Positions 7,559 to 40,407 of a DNA stretch of 64,000 nt are shown in pieces. How positions within the stretch are numbered: position 1 is the first letter of the stretch; every line of letters begins with the position of its first letter. This stretch comes from a bacterium (lineage in GTDB: Bacteria > Fibrobacterota > Fibrobacteria > UBA11236): positions 1 through 64,000 of the forward strand of contig OMJM01000022.1 of the NCBI GenBank assembly GCA_900299345.1. The letters are read 5' to 3'. Below the pieces are notes generated by a model. It did no database searches. It was not told the DNA's origin and saw nothing but the letters and a program-made list of their open reading frames with translations. The translations under genes were made by a program, and so were the position numbers.

Positions 7559-10500
7559 ATGCTTAAAACCGGATTGTGGAGCTTTCTTGCAGTGTCAGTC
7601 ACAGTCTTTGGGGCGGAAAATTATGCGCAGTGGAAGTACGCCCGTGACATCACCGTAAATACCACGGACTCCGGCGCCGGTGTGGGAGTTACCCAATACC
7701 GTTTCCCTCTTTTGGTGCGTCTCAATTCCGGAAACTTCGATTTTACCAAGGCGCTATCCAACGCCTCGGACATCCGTTTCACCAAGGCCAATGGAACGAC
7801 CCGATTGCCACATCAGGTCGAGCGTTGGGACAGTGCCGGACAGGCGGCGGAAGTTTGGGTGCTGGCGGATACGGTATTCGGGCACAGCAGCACCACGGTG
7901 AAGATGTACTTCGGGAAGACCGGGGTGGCCGACAGTTCCAGCGCCACTGCGGTGTTTATGACGGCGGATGTCGCCAATGGAGGCAACAACTTTCAAGCCG
8001 TGTTTCATTTGAACGAAGCGGCCAACGACACTATCCGCGACGTTACGGCCAACGGATTCAAAGGCATTCCCAAAAATCGCGGGGGGGTGAATCCGGCGGA
8101 TGTCACGGGCGTGATCGGCAAAGCCAAAAATTTCCTGGGATCCAACTCCAACAACAACGGGGGCTCCTACCGCATTGTGACATCCACGGGGGGAAATACC
8201 TATACCAATAACCCCCTGAACTTCCAGAACGATTCTTCCACTGTGGGCGGATTGCCTCGCTATACGATTTCCGCGTGGATTAAAACCTCGTCGTTTCCGG
8301 ACAGTATTGTCCATCGGAAAGCCATCATCGCCAAGTCGATCGGTCAGAACGTCTCCGGCGGCAGCGGCGGCCGGCAATATCACATGCGCCTGATGGAGCC
8401 CACGCAGACCAATCCCGTGTTGGACACCAACCGTGTGGAATTCTCGGATGGCGTGGCGGCGATTGGCAGGGAAGGATCTGATAAGTTTGACACAACGACC
8501 TGGGTGCACATTGCCGCGGTCCGCAACTTTGTGCGCGGCGTCAGCGGCAGTTCCATGGTTTTTGTCAACGGCCGCGCAGCGATCTCCGGCAACAGCGTGG
8601 CGAGTACGGAGCGATCGGATTACGACGTCTACATCGGCAGTTTTTCCAATGATTCCGGATATTTCACCGGCAAAATCGACGAGGTGGAATTCTCAAACCG
8701 CGATCGCGATTCGGACTGGGTGCGCCTGAGCTATCACACGCAGAAGCCTGGTGTGAACGCGCTGGGGGTCGGTGTGCAGCAACAATTGTTTCCCTCCAAC
8801 CTCGCCTATCCGGCGAACCCCGCCATTTACGCGGTGGGCATTCCCATTTCTCCCAATGTGAGGACGCAATTGGGATTGGCCACGCATTATTCCATCAGCC
8901 CTGCGCTGCCCGCGGGCCTGACATTGGACAGCGTGACCGGAATCATCTTCGGGACGCCGCTGGTGATTTCTTCCCCCACGAATTACACAGTGACTGCCAC
9001 CAGTCAAGCAGGCAGCGCCACTGCTATTGTGAATATCCGTGTGCTCACTCCGCCTTCCAATCTTTCTTACACGAAGCTCACGCCGGTTTATGGAGTGAAT
9101 GTGGCGATCACGAGCAATATTCCCACTGTTTCCGGGGATGTCACCAGTTATTCCGTGACACCGGCTCTTCCAACGGGATTGAGCTTGGACACGCTGACGG
9201 GTGTAATCGCCGGAACACCGACCGTGGTCATTCCCTCCGCCAATTACATCGTCACCGCCAGCAATCCCGCGGCATCGACCACCAAGACGATCAACATCAC
9301 CGTGCTTGCGCCACCTTCAAGCCTTTCCTATGCGCCCGGTTCCGGCATTTATGGCGTAGGGTTGACGTTGACGGAAACTCCCACGGTCACGGGAACGGTG
9401 CAGCATTATTCCGTGAGCCCTGCGCTGCCCACAGGGCTTTCATTGGATACGTTGACCGGATTGATTTCCGGTGCTCCGACCACGGTGAGCACAGCGACCA
9501 ATTATACCGTGACCGCATCAAACGTGGCGGGTTCCACAAATGCCATCCTCAATCTCACCACCATGCTGGTGCCTTCCAATCTGGCCTACCGCCGAGATAC
9601 AGTGGAGTTTGCAGCGACCGTTGCGATTACACCGGATAGCCCCTTCGTCACGGGAGCGATTTCCCATTACTCGCTTTCCGCCACACTTCCACCCGGATTG
9701 ACGATGGACACGTTGACCGGTATTCTGTCTGGAACGCCAACCTCCGAAGCCCCCACCACCAGTTTTGTGGTCACTGCCACCAATCCCGTGGGTTCCACCA
9801 TGGATACGTTGTGGATTACCGTCACCATCGCACCTCCTTCCAACCTTCACTACACTCTGAACAATGCGGTCTATGGAACTGGGGTGACCATAAACTCCAA
9901 TGAGCCCACAGTGACCGGGACAGCCACGCATTATTCGGTGTCTCCCGCTTTGCCTGCGGGACTGTCGATGGATGCTTTTACTGGCATTATCACCGGTACG
10001 CCCTCCGCCGCAATCCCCACCACCAACTTTGTGGTGACCGCCAGCAATTTCGTGGGCTCCACCCAGGATACGTTGGTGTTGACGGTGCTGGCGGCGCCCA
10101 CGGGTTTCAGCTATCCCGCAAATCCCGCCGTGTTCGGAGTGAACGTGACCATTCCCAACGATAGTCCCTCCGTGACGGGAACCGTGACGGGATATTCGGT
10201 GAGTCCCGCGCTGCCTGCAGGATTGTCGATCAATTCTTTCACGGGGGTTATTTCCGGAACTACAACCGTGGTTCAGGCTGCGGCGAATTACACGATTAAA
10301 GCTTTCAATGGTCCTGCTTTTGCCACGACGGTGCTGAGCATTACCGTGTTGGCGCCACCTTCCGGGCTTTCATATTCAAAAAACCCCGCAACCTATGGCA
10401 CAAACGTGGCGATCACCGCCAATACACCCAGTGTGATCGGCACAGTAACCCATTACTCTGTGATTCCCGCGCTTCCTTCCGGTCTCTTGATCGATTCAAT

Positions 10501-31870: not shown

Positions 31871-32566
31871 GTGGATTCCCCTAAGACAAAATTAAACCGG
31901 CCTTCCCTCGTGGTGTTTTCCGGGGGGCAGGATTCCACGACGTGCCTGCATTGGGCGTTGCGGACATTCACCGCTGTGGAGGCTGTTTTTTTCGACTACG
32001 GCCAGCGTCACAAATCCGAAGTGATGGCCGCCCAAAACATCGCCTGGAAAGTGAAAATTCCCCTGCGGATTTTCCGCCTGGATTTCTTCCGTGAGATGAA
32101 GGGGAACGCGCTGACCGATGCAACGATTCCCATCAACGCAGCGTCAGGTGGTGCCCTGCCCAACACCTTCGTGCCGGGCCGTAATCTGTTGTTTCTCACG
32201 CAAGCTGCGGCGTATGCTTATACCAAGGGAATCAAGGATATTGTGACGGGTGTCTGTCAGACGGATTACAGTGGTTATCCCGATTGCCGTTCGGACACGT
32301 TGCGGGCCTTGCAGAAATCGCTCCATCTGGGTTTGGGATGGCCGGAACGCGGTGGCGTGTTTCGCATTCACACGCCTTTGATGTTCAAAACCAAGGCCGA
32401 GAGCATTCAGATGGCTCAAAAATGGGGCGCGATGGAATCCCTGGCGCTTAGCCATACCTGTTACGAGGGCGTATCGCCTCCATGCGGAAAATGTCCGGCG
32501 TGTATTTTGCGTGCGAAAGGTTTTGCCGAGGCGGGGGTTGTGGATCCGCTGCTGGCAGGAGGGTAA
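31871..32566 (+). CDS. queC: 7-cyano-7-deazaguanine synthase QueC
   Basis: QueC uses ATP and ammonia to turn 7-carboxy-7-deazaguanine into preQ0. The PP-loop is VVFSGGQDSTTC (SGGxDS). The substrate and zinc region at the C-terminus is CYEGVSPPCGKCPACILR with four Cys ligands. VTGVCQTDYSGYPDCR is another signature. Length is 231 residues with the GTG start, which I prefer because the alternative TTG at 31862 overlaps the promoter element. It works with QueE upstream. The TAA stop is 1 nt from the next start. Confidence 0.94.
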   Translation: MDSPKTKLNRPSLVVFSGGQDSTTCLHWALRTFTAVEAVFFDYGQRHKSEVMAAQNIAWKVKIPLRIFRLDFFREMKGNALTDATIPINAASGGALPNTFVPGRNLLFLTQAAAYAYTKGIKDIVTGVCQTDYSGYPDCRSDTLRALQKSLHLGLGWPERGGVFRIHTPLMFKTKAESIQMAQKWGAMESLALSHTCYEGVSPPCGKCPACILRAKGFAEAGVVDPLLAGG

Positions 32567-32567
32567 T

Positions 32568-34073
32568 GTGGAGAAGTACGATGTTTGCGTGATCGGCTGC
32601 GGACCCGGTGGGTTTGCGGCGGCCATGCGCGCCTTTGATTTTGGAAAGCACGTCTGCCTAATTGAGGGCGGGAACATCGGCGGTGCAGGTATCATGCACG
32701 GCGCGCTCACCAGCAAGACCTTGTGGGAATTGGCCAAGGATTATGCCATCGCCGCCGGTGTCGATCGCGGATATCGCGTGGCGGGTTTGATGGTGGACTA
32801 TCAAACCGTGCGGAGTACCGTGATTCAGGCGGCCAAGGAAAAGCAGTATCAGATTCTTTCCCAGATCGAGACGTTTTCTCCACCGCGCTGGAAGGGGCCC
32901 GGTTCCATCACCTTGAAGCGCGGCTATGCAAAGTTCGTGGACGAACATACAGTGAGCCTTGCCGTGCAGGGCGGTCCTGAGGAGCTGGTCAAGTCGGACA
33001 ACTTCGTCATTGCGACCGGTTCCAAGCCCAGGGATTTTCCCGGTATTCACATCGACAACGATCGCATCATCAACTCCGACGGCATCCTTTCGTTCCGCGA
33101 GTTTCCCAAGCGCCTGCTGATTCTGGGCGCGGGCATCATCGGTTGCGAATACGCCAGCATCTTTTCCAATTTCGGACAGACCAAGGTGCATCTGCTGGAT
33201 CGTCAGCCGCGTATCATCCCGTTCGAGGACGAGGACATCAGCACCTTTGTTAACAAGAATCTTGAACAGAAGAACGTTACCGTTCACCACAACGCCATCC
33301 TGCGTGCCATTCACAAACATCCGGAGTTTCTGGAGGTGGTGGTGGACTACGAGGATGGCCGCAGTCAGGTACTTGAGGTGGACGCCGTGCTGGTTTCGGT
33401 GGGCCGAATTCCCAATCTAAGCCTGTTGGGTCTGGATCGGATCGGCCTTGTTCCGAACGCGCGTGGGGCGCTGGACACCGATGCAAGCTGCCGCGTCCGC
33501 GACCATATTTACGCCATCGGTGATGTCACCCAGCATTCGGCTCTTTACAATGTGGCCGAGATGGAAGGCAGGTACGCCGTCAAGTCCATGTTTGGAAAGA
33601 ACAAGTATCCACTGCGCTATCACAACATGTCCACCATCATGTTCTTCAATCCCGAGGTGGCGGTGGTGGGGCTCAATGAGCAGCAATGCCAGGCCCAGAA
33701 AATCTCGTACCGGGTTGCGTATTACTCCAATGCGCTGGTGAACCGCGCCATCGCCATGCGCCGTACAGACGGGTTTGTGAAAATCATCGTGTCCGAAGAC
33801 GGGCGTAATCGCATCCTCGGCATGCGCGCCGCCGGGCCGCAGGCTTCCAGCACCATCATGGTCATCGCGCATTTGATGGATCAGGACAAGGGTTTGGAGG
33901 AAATCATGAAGTCCATCCATCCGCATCCGTCCATCACGGAGGGGATTCAGGAAGGCTTACGCCTGATGACCGGGAAGTCGATTTACAAGCCGTTGGTGTT
34001 TCCGGACTACATGCATATCCGCGCATGGCATCCCGAGCACGGATATTCCGAAATCGCCGCGATGCCGGGTTGA
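32568..34073 (+). CDS. FAD-dependent class I pyridine nucleotide oxidoreductase lacking the redox disulfide (SthA-like)
   Basis: The 501-residue protein has the fold of lipoamide dehydrogenase and soluble transhydrogenase: FAD site VCVIGCGPGGFAAAMRA, NAD site LLILGAGIIGCEYASIF, and the second FAD motif YAIGDVT. The C-terminal dimerisation domain is complete and carries HPHPSITEGIQE. In place of the active-site CxxxxC, it reads GGAGIMHGALTSKTL, so both cysteines are missing. That resembles SthA, which lacks one of them, more than disulfide reductases; direct NAD(P)H transhydrogenase or quinone-type activity is possible. The GTG start is set by GGAGG six to seven bases upstream. Confidence 0.8.
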   Translation: MEKYDVCVIGCGPGGFAAAMRAFDFGKHVCLIEGGNIGGAGIMHGALTSKTLWELAKDYAIAAGVDRGYRVAGLMVDYQTVRSTVIQAAKEKQYQILSQIETFSPPRWKGPGSITLKRGYAKFVDEHTVSLAVQGGPEELVKSDNFVIATGSKPRDFPGIHIDNDRIINSDGILSFREFPKRLLILGAGIIGCEYASIFSNFGQTKVHLLDRQPRIIPFEDEDISTFVNKNLEQKNVTVHHNAILRAIHKHPEFLEVVVDYEDGRSQVLEVDAVLVSVGRIPNLSLLGLDRIGLVPNARGALDTDASCRVRDHIYAIGDVTQHSALYNVAEMEGRYAVKSMFGKNKYPLRYHNMSTIMFFNPEVAVVGLNEQQCQAQKISYRVAYYSNALVNRAIAMRRTDGFVKIIVSEDGRNRILGMRAAGPQASSTIMVIAHLMDQDKGLEEIMKSIHPHPSITEGIQEGLRLMTGKSIYKPLVFPDYMHIRAWHPEHGYSEIAAMPG

Positions 34074-34090: not shown

Positions 34091-34687
34091 TCACAGCCCA
34101 AGGCCAAATTCCGAGTCGGAAATCACCGAAAGTACGAGGACAGAAAAAACAATAACTGCAACCGATGGGGCTACGCATATCCATGTTGCCACAACATTGA
34201 GGTCACGGCGATTGATGTGATCGATGGATTCCCAAGGCAGAAAAATACTGCGGCTGGCCGTTCTGGTGTCTGTTTTGTTGAATAGCGAATCGATGGGAGT
34301 GTTTTTGTCTTTGAGAAAGAGATCCATTCGGTTTGATTGAGGGGGCATTTGATTATGCCAAATCACGTTCCTGGAACTGAATGCACCCAACATATTGGAA
34401 GTGGTATCTGAAACAAGCAGGAAAGGATTGTGAAGGGTTCCTTCCAATCCATATTCAGTCCAACGGGGATGTGTCAAGATCCCGGCTTTCTCGCCACTCC
34501 AGATGACAATGGCTCTGCCCTTGAAAACAGACAGCGAGTCGAGCGTACGGTTTGGGTCTTCACCCGCTGTGCGGATTCGATCTACTGGAATCATGGCGGT
34601 GTTGTAGCAGCCGTTGAGATGAAGGCAGAAGGTGGCAAGCAGGAGCCAGCCCATGCAAATTCGGAATGGATATTTGAATTCTGCCAT
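34091..34687 (-). CDS. Putative lipoprotein with a C-terminal membrane segment
   Basis: The 198-residue protein begins with a hydrophobic signal (MGWLLLATFCLHLNGC), a probable lipoprotein signal with a slightly unusual LNGC box. The middle holds FKGRAIVIWSGEKAG and later SRSIFLPWESIDHINRRDL, a pattern of strands ending in a DIxxI-type element like that in other genes of this cluster. A strongly hydrophobic helix (about 168-190) precedes the end. I do not recognise a named family. The start at 34687 is 11 nt after the preceding gene. The region is AT-richer than the flanking housekeeping genes. Confidence 0.65.
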   Translation of the reverse strand: MAEFKYPFRICMGWLLLATFCLHLNGCYNTAMIPVDRIRTAGEDPNRTLDSLSVFKGRAIVIWSGEKAGILTHPRWTEYGLEGTLHNPFLLVSDTTSNMLGAFSSRNVIWHNQMPPQSNRMDLFLKDKNTPIDSLFNKTDTRTASRSIFLPWESIDHINRRDLNVVATWICVAPSVAVIVFSVLVLSVISDSEFGLGL

Positions 34688-34698
34688 GGGTGTTCTTC

Positions 34699-35256
34699 TC
34701 AGAATTTTGCCCAAGCAATTGCGCCTGGTTTCAATCCGTCAGAAGTGGGCAGCAAGGTCGGAGCGAAACCGATCTGCATTGCGTTATGTGTTTCATTGGC
34801 CCGTCTTACGGCGTAATGTGTGTCAATGAGGCTGTAAATTGTGCCGGCGGCATAGAACCCGCTCAGGATGTAATGAACCGTGTAATCCTCACCCTCATGG
34901 CCGCCATCCAGTTTGCTCAGAACGATGTAAGAGAAAGAGCCTGCACCTACGGCGCGAATTAATATCCCTCCAAACCCCGTTCCAATGGAACCCGCATAAA
35001 ATTGGCCCAATGACGGGCCAATGAGGGCTCCTCCAAAAAAACCGAGATTGTCTTTAAAAGTCCTGTAGCCTTCCCCCTTATCGGATGAAATGATTTCTCC
35101 TATCCCAAAAACGAAGGGCAGAGTTCCAATAGTTGCCCAAGTATAGGCCCAACCTTCGCTTTTCTTGGGAGTGGAATTCGAGGTGTCGGTTTGCGCTGCT
35201 GCAGCCAAGCATGATAAGCAAACAAGCAGGGCTGATGTTTTAAATAGGTGACGCAT
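34699..35256 (-). CDS. Exported membrane protein, paralogue of 38214-38921
   Basis: The 185-residue protein has a signal peptide (about 1-21, ending AAAAQ) and hydrophobic segments around GTLPFVFGIGEII, FFGGALIGPSLGQFYAGS and FGGILIRAVGAG. It shares with the gene at 38214-38921 the blocks AYTWA.GTL, GPSLGQFYAGS, IYSLIDTH.AV.RANE and the ending GLKPGA.AW, so the two are clear paralogues. The GPSLGQFYAG block resembles the loop of DUF5683/TM2-like envelope proteins, but I do not assign a function. It lies in the seven-gene minus-strand cluster. Confidence 0.75.
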   Translation of the reverse strand: MRHLFKTSALLVCLSCLAAAAQTDTSNSTPKKSEGWAYTWATIGTLPFVFGIGEIISSDKGEGYRTFKDNLGFFGGALIGPSLGQFYAGSIGTGFGGILIRAVGAGSFSYIVLSKLDGGHEGEDYTVHYILSGFYAAGTIYSLIDTHYAVRRANETHNAMQIGFAPTLLPTSDGLKPGAIAWAKF

Positions 35257-35318
35257 ACTACCCTCCCAAGATATTCGGAAATTTGGCGTCGGAAGTGTGA
35301 AAAGCTTAACCTACGCGT

Positions 35319-36155
35319 TTAGTCCCCGCTTAATCGGAGGGCGTTATCCTTGTCGAACATGATGTTTCGCGGAACCGAAATTCCGGATGTTTCCAACCTG
35401 AGGATTTTGGAGATCTCCAAATCGTGCAGTACTCCGTCCTTCTCGTAAGTAATCCATCCCTCGCGGATTTCCCGGATGAGGCATGATTTCCTTGTCGTGC
35501 CATCCTTAAGGACGATTCGGATGCGGCCTAGCTGATTCAGGTTGATGGGGGTATCCGATACGGTGGGTGTCGTGGGAGTTGCCGAAATGTCTTTCGCGCC
35601 ATCGTTAATCGTTGTCACCACAGCGCTGTCGGTATGGGTCAATGGCACAGGAATGGGAGTAGATGGCGCATGGTTTTCAGATAATTGATATTCCACGTTT
35701 GCCCCGCCGATGGCGCCGATCAAGAGACCTACGAGCCCTCCATCAATGCAGCCGCCTAGAATAACTGGGGCAGATGCGGCTCCACTCAAACTGACAACCG
35801 TGCCGATGCCGCATCCTCACAGAAGGCCAAGTGTCAATCCGTGAACAGAACCGATTCCATGGTCCATGACGCCGATGCTGGAAATCCGTGACAGGGGGAT
35901 TCTGGAATAGGCATTCATAGTCAAAAAACCAATTGTATCCTCTCCTGCCGATGAAATTTTTCCGGAATATTCTGCGCCATCTTGCATGACGACATGAACC
36001 TTGTCTCTCGATTTCAAATCCTTCATCGTGGAGGAATAGGCTGATGGGTCGCGGATATCCAACGGGCGTGTAATTGTCGCCGCGCAATGGATCAGAGCCA
36101 GCGATGACAGCACCGCCGTGATGCGCAACCGGTTCATTCCGTTGAACAGGTGCAT
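35319..36155 (-). pseudogene. Envelope protein with two DG-type beta domains, interrupted by an in-frame TGA
   Basis: Two track ORFs (112 and 156 residues) lie in the same frame and are separated by one TGA at 35817-35819. Read through, they make a single protein of about 277 residues: a signal region (about 7-25), a small beta domain (VHVVMQDGAEYSGKI...IGFLT...ISSIGV), a glycine-rich membrane-like stretch (GGLVGLLIGAIGG) and a second beta domain (IRIVLKDGTTRKS...WITYEKDGVLHD...ILRLET). The second domain is paralogous to the neighbouring gene at 36595-36981. The stop therefore looks like a point mutation or sequencing error. Each half still has a plausible reading, and the first could be made as a truncated exported protein. 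Confidence 0.75.
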
Positions 36156-36159
36156 GACA

Positions 36160-36594
36160 TCACTCCACCCGCTTCCATTGCTGCGAGCGTCCCAGCAATG
36201 AGAATCCGATGAATCCGCGCACGGTCAGGGTTTTTCCGTCCTGGCTGATGGTCAGCTTGCAGCGATAAATTTTTCCATTGCCCGGGTCGAGGATACGGCC
36301 ATCTTCCCATGAGGAACCGTGTGATTTCATTCCCCAAAGCACCGTCATTCCCCGTATGGGTTTTCCTTTCCGTTCGTCCGAACATTCTTCGCAGACACGA
36401 TCCGGGCTTTTCCCGGGCCACGGAAGCAGAGAATCTACTGCACCCTTGAGTTCTCCCTTTTCCACGTACAGACGGATGATGGATTTGGCTTTGCCAGTTT
36501 CATCGTCGAAAGTTTCCCAACGTCCCTTTACGTTTTCGTCGCCGGCAAAAACGGCGAGAGCAACAAGTTGCAGAAACAGAAGTGTACGGAACAT
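36160..36594 (-). CDS. DUF2147 family exported protein
   Basis: The 144-residue protein has a signal peptide (1-17, ending VFAG) and the full DUF2147 pattern: GRWETFDDETGKAKSIIRLY, a CEECSDERKGKPIRGM segment, DGRILDPGNGKIYRCKL, and VRGFIGFSLLGRSQQWKR at the end. The family is periplasmic or outer-membrane-associated, beta-rich and of unknown role. Its ATG directly follows the stop of the upstream gene (TGAATG), and it is 4 nt from the next gene, so it is embedded in the cluster transcript. Confidence 0.9.
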   Translation of the reverse strand: MFRTLLFLQLVALAVFAGDENVKGRWETFDDETGKAKSIIRLYVEKGELKGAVDSLLPWPGKSPDRVCEECSDERKGKPIRGMTVLWGMKSHGSSWEDGRILDPGNGKIYRCKLTISQDGKTLTVRGFIGFSLLGRSQQWKRVE

Positions 36595-36981
36595 TCATTC
36601 TCCTTTCCCGGCGATGAGCCGGGGTTTGTTGTGGTCGTCGAACTCGATCGTCCACGCGGCACCCGCGGGTGTTTCCAATCGCAGGATGCGGTCGATCATC
36701 TCGTCATGCAGGACGCCGTTCTTTTCGTACACGATCCAGTTGTCGTGGATCTCCTTGATCAGGCAGGACCTTTTCATCGTTCCATCCTTCAGCACCATCA
36801 AGACCCTTCCGAGATGTTTGATCACGAGCAGTTCGGGATCCTCGTTTTTTGGTGAGTGTGCCGCCGTGCTGTCACCCGGCGTCAGTGCTTTGGCCGTGTC
36901 GAGCGGTGTTTGCGGAGCCGGCTGAGCATAAGCCGGGGCAAGCAGGCTTGCGGCCAGTGCCGGAGGGAACAGCGGATTCAT
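36595..36981 (-). CDS. Exported small beta-domain protein (shares the KDGT...EKxGVLHD module)
   Basis: The 128-residue product has a signal peptide ending AYAQ, a proline/threonine-rich linker and one beta module: LGRVLMVLKDGTMKRSCLI, then DNWIVYEKNGVLHD and IDRILRLETP. The same module is the C-terminal domain of the interrupted gene at 35319-36155. The pattern of a strand, a DGT turn and a closing I..I.RLE strand recalls SH3/Sm-like small barrels, but this is inference. No ribosome site is strong; the start is 3 nt after the upstream stop. Confidence 0.75.
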   Translation of the reverse strand: MNPLFPPALAASLLAPAYAQPAPQTPLDTAKALTPGDSTAAHSPKNEDPELLVIKHLGRVLMVLKDGTMKRSCLIKEIHDNWIVYEKNGVLHDEMIDRILRLETPAGAAWTIEFDDHNKPRLIAGKGE

Positions 36982-36984
36982 GGA

Positions 36985-38085
36985 TTACTCGACGGCTTTT
37001 TTCTTGTGCACGTTGAAACCGAAGGAAAATCCCACCACCGAGGCATCCTTGCGCGGCGAGAAATACACGTTCAGAGGGATGTTGAGATAACCCGAGTGAA
37101 TCGTGAGCCCACCCACGAACAGCAAGCTGGTCACAATCTTGAGATCGCCGCTTTTATCCGGCAAGGTTTTCGTGGTGAATCCCGATCCGGCAGGGGCGTC
37201 GCCTAGATGCCAGGTACCGGCGTTGTCGAAGTAACCGTCCGCCAGTTGCACGAGCCGGAAGGTGGGGCCGAGTGCGAACTCCAAGCCAAGCTTGCCAAAC
37301 CGGAATCCCTGCAGAGTCGAAAGCGAGGGAATGAGCAGTCCGCTTTCCAATCCACCGATGGACGGCACGAATTCGACCAGCGCCTGGAAATTGCCCGCGC
37401 TGATGTAAGAGATTTCCTGTTGCCAGCCGAACTGGAACATCAAGGGCCACATGCCAAATCCACCTTGATCCTTGGGCGCCTGCATCCGTTTGGCGGCATC
37501 GCCCATGGTATAGGAGAATCCCATGCGCGGCCCGTTGTTGGTGAAGGAGGTATTGGGGCTTTCAATGGGCGTGTTGTAGTCGATCAGCATGGAGACCAAC
37601 GTGGGATCGGGCGGGAGGCCCGCCATTTTTTCCACCGAGATCTGCACCATCTTCTGCACTTCGGGCAGGTTCAGGTATTCGGTGGCCTCGCTCTTCTCGA
37701 TCGTTCCCGAGGCCACGTCGATCAGACGCAACGTAATGACGATCTTTTCCCCGAAACGCTCGGCGCTGCCGCTCATCATTTTTGCGACGCCAAGGTGGCG
37801 CCCGATGTCCACCAGACAGGTTTTGGAAAAACAGCTGTCCACTGAAAAAGGTGCCTTGGCCACCACATCGGCGACTTCATATCGATCCATCACGGAATAA
37901 ACGCCGGTTTTTTCCAGCTCCAGCCTGACCAGATATCCCATGGCCTGTGCGTCCTGAACCAGACCTTTGGTGGCGATGTTCAGGACGGCGATGGTTGGTT
38001 TTCCTTGGGCGAAAGCGCCGGTGGAAAGCAACATCGTGGCGGCGAGGAAAGCTGTTTTGCGGAATATGTTTTGAATCGCTGGCAT
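36985..38085 (-). CDS. Exported CsgG/TolB-N-like protein with a C-terminal beta-rich domain
   Basis: The 366-residue protein has a signal peptide (about 1-27, ending AFAQ). Residues about 28-150 (KPTIAVLNIATKG..., LVRLELEKTGVYSVMDRYEV, ...GEKIVITLRLIDVASGTIEKS) form the alpha/beta fold shared by CsgG and TolB N-terminal-type domains that assemble at the inner face of the outer membrane. A CFSKTC pair lies in the loop. The C-terminal part alternates hydrophobic and glycine-rich strands and ends VVGFSFGFNVHKK, like an outer-membrane barrel. The start at 38085 is set by AAAGGAG; the track's TTG start adds 29 basic residues. Confidence 0.75.
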   Translation of the reverse strand: MPAIQNIFRKTAFLAATMLLSTGAFAQGKPTIAVLNIATKGLVQDAQAMGYLVRLELEKTGVYSVMDRYEVADVVAKAPFSVDSCFSKTCLVDIGRHLGVAKMMSGSAERFGEKIVITLRLIDVASGTIEKSEATEYLNLPEVQKMVQISVEKMAGLPPDPTLVSMLIDYNTPIESPNTSFTNNGPRMGFSYTMGDAAKRMQAPKDQGGFGMWPLMFQFGWQQEISYISAGNFQALVEFVPSIGGLESGLLIPSLSTLQGFRFGKLGLEFALGPTFRLVQLADGYFDNAGTWHLGDAPAGSGFTTKTLPDKSGDLKIVTSLLFVGGLTIHSGYLNIPLNVYFSPRKDASVVGFSFGFNVHKKKAVE

Positions 38086-38213
38086 GTTGGCTCCTTTCGA
38101 GAGGTGTTTGGCGATTGCACCTCTTCGACGGAGCGATTGTTTGCTTGGTAACCTTTTGCGCAGTGTGCGCAAAGTCTGGAGGATTCGGAAAATTCAGCGG
38201 TGTTTAAATGGCT

Positions 38214-38921
38214 TCAAAACCTCACCCACGCCACCGCGCCGGGTTTCAATCCGCCGCTTGAGGATGGAAAAAGTTCGGGAGCAAAACCAAAGTGTTGAGC
38301 AGTCGCTTTCTCATTGGCCCTCTTCACAGCGTCATGTGTGTCTATGAGGCTGTACAATGTCCCGATAGTATAGCATACGATACCGCCGGCAATCAGACCG
38401 CCACCACCAGCACCTTCTTCCGAAAACATGCTGTTAGCCAATTGCTCTACCCCGAACGCAAAAACCGAGAGCCCAACGGCGCGAAACCCTATGCCTGACA
38501 TTGCTTGGGAAGCGGAACCGGCATAGAATTGTCCCAAGGAAGGACCCACTAATCCAACTATTGCAAGAGGAATGATCTCACCTGCCATTGGGTGACCTTC
38601 TTGAACGAGGCTTTTGGCCCAAATCAGGGGCACCAAAGTGCCACCAAGTGCCCATGTATAGGCCACTCCTTCATCTTTTGACGTCAAGATTTTTTCAGGA
38701 ATGGATTTAGTCGGGGCTGTCACGGCCCTGAGTGAGGAATCCGGCAGATGGTATTCAACGGTACTTCCATCGTTCCTATATTCGATAATCTTTCCGTCGG
38801 GAAGCGTGTCGATCCATGTCTTTGAAACGTCGTGGGCTTCTGGAAAGGATTGTGCCGAAACAGAAATGACAAGGGACAGGATAAAAGGCAAAGCTGTCAG
38901 CAACCTGTGGCAGGACTTCAT
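38214..38921 (-). CDS. Exported membrane protein, paralogue of 34699-35256
   Basis: The 235-residue product has a signal peptide (about 1-23, ending VSAQ), an extra hydrophilic N-terminal segment (DGKIIEYRNDGSTVEYH) and then the paralogous region shared with 34699-35256: AYTWALGGTL, GPSLGQFYAGSA, YSLIDTHDAVKRANE and the GLKPGAVAWVRF terminus. Several hydrophobic stretches could span or line a membrane. A clean AGGAG ribosome site precedes ATG 38921. It is the first gene of the minus-strand envelope cluster, and 128 nt separate it from the next gene. Confidence 0.75.
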   Translation of the reverse strand: MKSCHRLLTALPFILSLVISVSAQSFPEAHDVSKTWIDTLPDGKIIEYRNDGSTVEYHLPDSSLRAVTAPTKSIPEKILTSKDEGVAYTWALGGTLVPLIWAKSLVQEGHPMAGEIIPLAIVGLVGPSLGQFYAGSASQAMSGIGFRAVGLSVFAFGVEQLANSMFSEEGAGGGGLIAGGIVCYTIGTLYSLIDTHDAVKRANEKATAQHFGFAPELFPSSSGGLKPGAVAWVRF

Positions 38922-39016: not shown

Positions 39017-39069
39017 CTCCTCCATCCCGTCCCTTGAAATCAAGGGATTCAAGGCTTTTTCGGAGAATC

Positions 39070-40407
39070 ATGTCCTACCAGCACATCAAAATCCCCGCAC
39101 GCGGTGAACGCATTCAAATCGACTCTCACGGCAAGCTCCAAGTTCCGGACGAGCCCATCATTCCCTTCATCGAAGGTGATGGAACCGGGCCGGACATCTG
39201 GAAGTCTTCTCAATATCTGCTCGACGAAGCGGTGCGCAAGGTGTACGGCGGAAAAAAGAAAATCGCGTGGATGGAAGTCTACGCAGGAGAAAAGTCCACG
39301 AAGGTTTATGGCGAGGGCCAATGGCTTCCCGATGAAACCATCGACGCCTTCAAGGAATACCTCGTCGGCATCAAGGGCCCGTTGACCACGCCGGTGGGGA
39401 AGGGTATCCGCTCCTTGAATGTGGCATTGCGTCAGATTCTCGATCTCTACGTGTGCCTCCGGCCGGTGCGTTGGTTCCAGGGTGTACCTTCTCCGGTCAA
39501 GCATCCCGAAAAAGTGGACATGGTGATCTTCCGGGAAAACACTGAAGACATTTATGCCGGCATCGAGTGGGCAGGCGGTTCGGCCGAGGCCAACAAGGTT
39601 CTCGCGTTTCTGCAGAAGGAATTCCCGAAAGAGTTTTCCAAGATCCGTTTTGGAACCGAAGAAGCTTCGCAAGGCTGGCAGAAGAAACTGGAATCCATCG
39701 GCGCTCCGTCGCGTACGGTTGCCGTGGACGTGGGTGTGGGCATCAAGCCCGTGAGTTATCTCGGCACGGAGCGTTTGGTGCACAGCGCCATCTCCTACGC
39801 CATTGCGCACAAGCGCAAGAGCGTGACTTTGGTGCACAAAGGCAACATCATGAAGTTCACCGAAGGCGGCTTCCGCGACTGGGGCTACAAGGTGGCCAAA
39901 GACTTTTTCGGCGCCGTGGAAATCGACGGTGGCCCGTGGTGCAAGATCCCCGAGGGCAAACCTGGCGCAGGATTGGTCATCAAGGATTCCATTGCCGACA
40001 TTGCGTTGCAGCAGGTGCTGACACGTCCCGAGGATTTCGACGTGATCGCCACGCTCAACCTGAACGGGGATTATCTCTCCGACGCTTTGGCTGCGCAAGT
40101 GGGTGGCATCGGTATTGCGCCCGGTGGCAATCTGAATTACCTCACCGGCCACGCGATCTTCGAGGCCACGCACGGCACTGCGCCCAAGTACGCGAATCTG
40201 GATAAAGTGAATCCGGGTTCGGTGGTGCTGTCCGGCGTGATGATGTTGGAGCATCTCGGCTGGCAGGAAGCAGCCGATCGCATCGTGAAAGCCATGGAAA
40301 CGGTGATTTCTCGCAAGGAAGTCACTTATGATTTCGCACGATTGATGGAAGGCGCGCGGGAAGTGAAATGTTCGGAGTTCGGGCGGTTGGTGGCGGAAGC
40401 CATTTGA
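39070..40407 (+). CDS. icd: Isocitrate dehydrogenase (NADP-type)
   Basis: This TCA-cycle enzyme decarboxylates isocitrate to 2-oxoglutarate. The 445 residues match the long bacterial NADP form. [12 protein letters not shown] opens the fold, [22 protein letters not shown] carries the substrate Ser and Arg residues, and [19 protein letters not shown] contains the Lys-Tyr pair that selects NADP in the E. coli enzyme. CGGAGAATC precedes ATG 39070; the track start at 39034 falls in the leader. It is followed by citrate synthase after 22 nt, forming a two-gene unit. Confidence 0.96.

Follow-up and report, generated by a model that had tools for sequence, protein, structure and literature searches.

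An accessory two-module locus of envelope proteins in Fibrobacterota contains a widely conserved, predicted outer-membrane barrel

Seven genes for exported proteins lie between lpd and icd

We analyzed a 64,000-nucleotide stretch of DNA (the window) on contig 22 of a 2.24-Mb draft genome of the Fibrobacterota, labeled G000. Seven minus-strand genes, which we named A to G in the order of their transcription, occupy positions 34091 to 38921, flanked by lpd (32511 to 34073, plus strand) and icd (39034 to 40407, plus strand). The genes and their features are as follows.

38214 to 38921, minus strand: gene A, 235 aa, paralogue 1 of the GPSLGQFYAGS family, with a signal peptide and an invariant C-terminal Phe
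38155 to 38173, no strand assigned: perfect 8+3+8 inverted repeat, TTTGCGCA-CAC-TGCGCAAA, in the A-B gap upstream of B
36985 to 38085, minus strand: gene B, 366 aa, a signal peptide, an LpoB/TolB_N-like periplasmic domain and then a predicted 8-stranded barrel; a natural fusion
37621 to 38007, minus strand: N-terminal LpoB/TolB_N/CsgG-like domain of B, about residues 27 to 155 (Foldseek match to LpoB 4q6l, TMt 0.66; PF04052)
36985 to 37620, minus strand: C-terminal "QFGW" barrel domain of B, homologous to stand-alone exported proteins of about 200 aa in many phyla
36595 to 36981, minus strand: gene C, 128 aa, exported, one predicted KDG (Sm/SH3-like) module
36160 to 36594, minus strand: gene D, 144 aa, DUF2147
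35319 to 36155, minus strand: gene E, 278 codons interrupted by an in-frame stop, with a predicted Sm-like module on each side of a glycine-rich transmembrane hairpin
35817 to 35819, minus strand: in-frame TGA, codon 113 of E
34699 to 35256, minus strand: gene F, 185 aa, paralogue 2 of the GPSLGQFYAGS family
34091 to 34687, minus strand: gene G, 198 aa, lipoprotein with lipobox LNGC and a C-terminal transmembrane segment

The intergenic gaps are short, at 128 nt (A-B), 3 nt (B-C), 0 nt (C-D), 4 nt (D-E), 62 nt (E-F), and 11 nt (F-G), and the inverted repeat in the longest of them is possibly a candidate operator. An earlier reading of this DNA, made without database searches (here, the sequence-only reading), had described seven closely spaced genes on one strand, and both its coordinates and its strand were right. 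It had also given every product a signal peptide, and by eye all seven do have a hydrophobic export-type N terminus. The list of open reading frames behind it split E in two at the in-frame TGA, where there is one gene, and we revised the start of G, most likely the ATG at 34687. The lipoprotein that it proposed is G, as the LNGC lipobox indicates; the G ortholog in a sister species, G002, is 41% identical.

G002 also has an intact E ortholog of 284 codons (locus L049, 9766 to 10620). Recoding of the TGA in the window copy is not favored, because A, C, D, F, and G all end in TGA; the stop may have arisen by nonsense mutation, or it may be an error made in assembling the draft genome. Gene D, which had been called a DUF2147 protein, is a clear member of that family (PF09917; 101 bits against a cut-off of 27) and is here linked to B and C. 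It is the only DUF2147 gene in G000, as its counterpart is in G002. Nine papers mention DUF2147, though never in the title or abstract, and we found none on this cluster.

The cluster joins two modules at an insertion site

We compared the lpd-icd junction across the genus. In two of the four congeners, G001 and G003, the insertion is absent and lpd and icd adjoin, about 0.2 to 0.3 kb apart. In G002, genes A, E, F, and G (module 2) lie between lpd and icd just as they do in G000, and B, C, and D (module 1: an LpoB/TolB_N-type domain with its barrel, a KDG module, and DUF2147) form a three-gene set in the same order on another contig. The B ortholog there is 70% identical to B overall and 75% identical in the barrel. 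B and C sit side by side in each of the two species. Both G000 and G002 have B, C, and D, and G001 and G003 lack all three, DUF2147 included. GC content divides the genes into the same two sets as the G002 synteny, being about 0.50 for A, E, F, and G versus 0.55 to 0.57 for B-C-D. The cluster thus joins two modules in an accessory insertion at the lpd-icd junction, and the separate loci in G002, together with the GC split, imply that module 1 was placed into module 2 here or that it left module 2 in the other lineage.

These comparisons do not support the single seven-gene system that the sequence-only reading had proposed: its orthologues sit in separate loci in G002, and G001 and G003 have nothing inserted at the junction. 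Gene order is conserved in G002 for B-C-D, but not for the seven genes together. What was borne out is a set of envelope proteins with a modular design and local duplication. Two further observations concern this region in relatives. The module-2 locus of G002 also carries a fatty-acid-hydroxylase gene (PF04116; L049, 9194 to 9766) and a small lipoprotein gene (8189 to 8548), both of which the window lacks. In genus g2 (G004, G005, and G006) each lpd match contains one TAG, the alignment probably overrunning the true stop.

Module 2 encodes envelope proteins that are specific to the lineage. Its two GPSLGQ genes, A and F, are paralogues, as had been proposed (44% identity, E value about 1e-28). 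The family occurs in 4 of 168 Fibrobacterota genomes and in 29 of the 133 that represent the phylum to which G168, a genome titled Zixiibacteriota, belongs; a search for it in phages found none. Tandem arrays of three to four such genes in Zixibacteria (L215, L220, L226, and L228) indicate that duplication is a habit of the A/F family. The aligned copies end in Phe, and several have alternating hydrophobic residues, as an outer-membrane beta-signal would. In Zixibacteria the family occurs without B or C, contrary to a single system. One Zixibacterium locus, L106, suggested a general link between A/F genes and the barrel, which the other 20 Zixibacteria neighborhoods, with no barrel gene near their A/F genes, ruled out. 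No neighbor of A/F genes recurs widely in Zixibacteria. In L106 a lipoprotein gene (2113 to 2613) separates the A/F pair from the barrel gene; its product has a DG motif and a C-terminal transmembrane segment, a layout like that of G.

The seven genes may be unrelated accessory genes for the envelope that gathered at the lpd-icd junction because this site tolerates insertions; the two modules would then share no function, and only B-C-D would form an operon. The separate loci in G002, the empty site in G001 and G003, the difference in GC between the modules, and the 20 Zixibacteria neighborhoods, which have neither a barrel nor a KDG gene near A/F and no widely recurring neighbor, all favor such an assortment; against it stand the conserved order of B-C-D, the module that E has in common with C, and the one Zixibacterium whose only two A/F homologs have a barrel gene about 1.9 kb away. 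We give it slightly less than an even chance. The cluster is more than chance, since module 1 is kept in G002 and the GPSLGQ and KDGT families are missing from nearly all of the 168 Fibrobacterota genomes.

Protein B carries an undescribed but widely conserved predicted barrel

The sequence-only reading had described B as CsgG/TolB-N-like with a barrel-like end, and both halves gained support. TolB_N (PF04052) was the best Pfam match of B and of its G002 ortholog, scoring 16.9 and 23.3 bits, respectively, against a cut-off of 22.4. CsgG (PF03783) did not match B and gave 12.0 bits for the ortholog (cut-off, 20.8); LpoB (PF13036) gave 15.9 bits for the ortholog (cut-off, 22.3), and B too was below the LpoB cut-offs. 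Foldseek matched the model of the N-terminal domain to LpoB (4q6l, TMt 0.66; 4hrv, TMt 0.59) and also to GNA1162 and TolB, although this is a low-confidence part of the model (pLDDT blocks of 39 to 83). B has no TolB-type beta-propeller, its C-terminal half being the predicted barrel. LpoB is an outer-membrane lipoprotein that activates PBP1B. B resembles it in predicted fold and is expected to be periplasmic at the outer membrane, but the anchor of B would be an 8-stranded barrel, either fused or adjacent, where LpoB has lipid; no lipobox Cys was found in the B signal peptide.

The C-terminal half of B is predicted to be an OmpX/Ail-like 8-stranded outer-membrane barrel. Its strands, at residues 185-195, 215-230, 233-244, 252-263, 268-280, 315-331, 334-344, and 348-356, were mostly modeled at pLDDT 88 to 96, and Foldseek matched them to Ail (TMt 0.61) and also to OmpX, OmpA, NspA, PagL, and PagP. 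The likeness to OmpX, Ail, and the OmpA transmembrane barrel is one of predicted fold: we found no sequence relationship, and the QFGW motifs define a family of their own. A scan of the genomes of 84,980 species with a 7-row alignment found 88 barrel loci, from Fibrobacterota, Bacteroidetes, Ignavibacteria, Zixibacteria, Krumholzibacteria, Cloacimonadota, Calditrichaeota, Gemmatimonadetes, Acidobacteria, and others. The family, which spans about nine phyla, has a near-invariant motif set (GPRxG / QFGWxxE / GGxE / GxR / ExGxGP) with invariant R, E, G, P, and W positions. No Pfam or NCBIfam model covers it, and its profile had no sequence match in the PDB; nor did the barrel, KDG, and A/F profiles yield a convincing solved relative. 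The QFGW barrel family is undescribed and unnamed, yet widely conserved. Since its profile matches no solved chain, the barrel is not evidently a subunit of the BAM complex in the Bacteroidota study PMC12611786.

By strand alternation, the invariant residues R187, Q218, E224, R262, and E269 fall on one strand face, and R187, E224, R262, and E269 should point into the barrel, as do the residues of the OmpA salt-bridge network. The same residues could be read as the mark of an enzyme of the outer membrane with lipid as its substrate, like PagL or PagP, both among the Foldseek matches, with the N-terminal domain or a KDG module regulating it. We consider such an enzyme unlikely: the nonenzymatic Ail and OmpX outrank PagL and PagP, no catalytic set is evident, and where QFGWHFE commonly has its His, the window copy has Gln. 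In OmpA, R/E pairs of this kind form internal salt bridges.

Searching with the C-terminal half of B, we found seven stand-alone barrels of about 200 aa in distant Fibrobacterota. In six of these seven genomes, a separate exported CsgG/LpoB-like gene lies directly upstream on the same strand, and the separate partners in Chitinivibrionales pass the Pfam CsgG cut-off; in G130 the barrel is present without a CsgG-like partner. B is a fusion of that Fibrobacterota gene pair, the gene order matching the domain order. The neighbor search ruled out a CsgG-like gene as a universal partner outside Fibrobacterota: none lay beside the barrel in about 75 non-Fibrobacterota loci, apart from one marginal match (E value 0.008), and no functionally characterized gene is consistently found next to the barrel unit. 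The CsgG-superfamily domain of B and its partners might suggest part of a curli-type or similar secretion channel, but this is very improbable, as B has no lipobox, its own barrel replaces the CsgG pore hairpins, no curli genes lie in the cluster, and, to our knowledge, a closed 8-stranded barrel offers no channel wide enough for protein export.

KDG modules are joined to the same barrel in Bacteroidota

A module (KDGT...YEKxGVLHD...RxE) that C and E had been reported to share proved to be common to both (E value 2e-20). In Adhaeribacter, Hymenobacter, and Flavobacteriales loci, an N-terminal KDG module is fused to the barrel; such fusions are frequent in Bacteroidota, and they are often adjoined by further KDG genes, which can carry one or two modules. 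The C/E module aligns in register with these modules, whose pattern is DxITxKNGxQxxxxxxExTPxxIKFKK..DGPxYSxNxSDVxSITYxNG. Against the Bacteroidota module, the C/E2 alignment outscored 200 of 200 column shuffles and the first module of E (E1) outscored 199 of 200; hhalign with the C/E module gave a P value of 0.002 with a probability of only 14%, the KDG modules being short. The window modules compared with each other, E1 against C/E2, were at chance in both hhalign and column shuffles. These alignments suggest that C is a KDG module of the barrel-fused Bacteroidota type.

The suggestion that the DG-turn modules are Sm-like gained support at the level of fold. In the model of protein E, a helical hairpin has a small five-stranded barrel on each side; the best Foldseek matches were to Hfq, at TMt 0.7 to 0.85 and an rmsd of about 1.1 Å over 55 to 60 residues; E values were 0.01 to 0.04, for a model built from only four sequences. 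The KDG module is like Hfq/LSm in its predicted helix and five-stranded small barrel with a DG turn, but it has no Pfam match, and E would sit in the membrane, its transmembrane hairpin lying between the two modules; RNA binding is not implied. The DUF903 lipoproteins (YgdI/YgdR) are exported, as are the KDG proteins here.

A predicted envelope unit of barrel, LpoB-like domain, and KDG module

Because two independent fusion links, to a CsgG/LpoB-like domain and to a KDG module, recur across phyla, the sequences support a real envelope unit made up of these three parts. The conserved association (B and C, with D) is smaller, but phylogenetically much wider, than the sequence-only reading had guessed. 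Our preferred explanation, which we hold to be somewhat more likely than not, is an accessory two-module locus whose functional core, B-C-D, pairs a barrel-anchored LpoB/TolB_N-type domain with a KDG module and most likely serves as an envelope scaffold or regulator. The barrel of B would tether the LpoB/TolB_N-type domain to the outer membrane on its periplasmic side, taking over the part that lipid plays for LpoB. The exported Sm-like KDG module of C would dock onto this barrel unit; Bacteroidota have such a module in one chain with the barrel. We infer that the unit forms a physical complex and couples the outer membrane to periplasmic machinery, for example that of peptidoglycan synthesis or of a Tol-like constriction. 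E, in module 2, has two more predicted Sm-like modules around its transmembrane hairpin and is interrupted in this genome.

More tentatively, and with the odds leaning a little against us, we suggest that the QFGW barrel is the anchor of an unrecognized outer-membrane module found across the FCB group and beyond. It would work with either a CsgG/LpoB-type or an Sm-like periplasmic domain, as a coupling device whose parts have been shuffled by fusion between phyla. A strongly conserved predicted barrel in about nine phyla, including the culturable Bacteroidota Adhaeribacter and Hymenobacter, is thus without a family model; two independent natural fusions name its periplasmic partner domains, so its role is directly testable.

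TolB_N/CsgG-like exported proteins are numerous in some relatives, with 21 matches in G010 and 17 in G012, and form an expanded family in Fibrobacterota.
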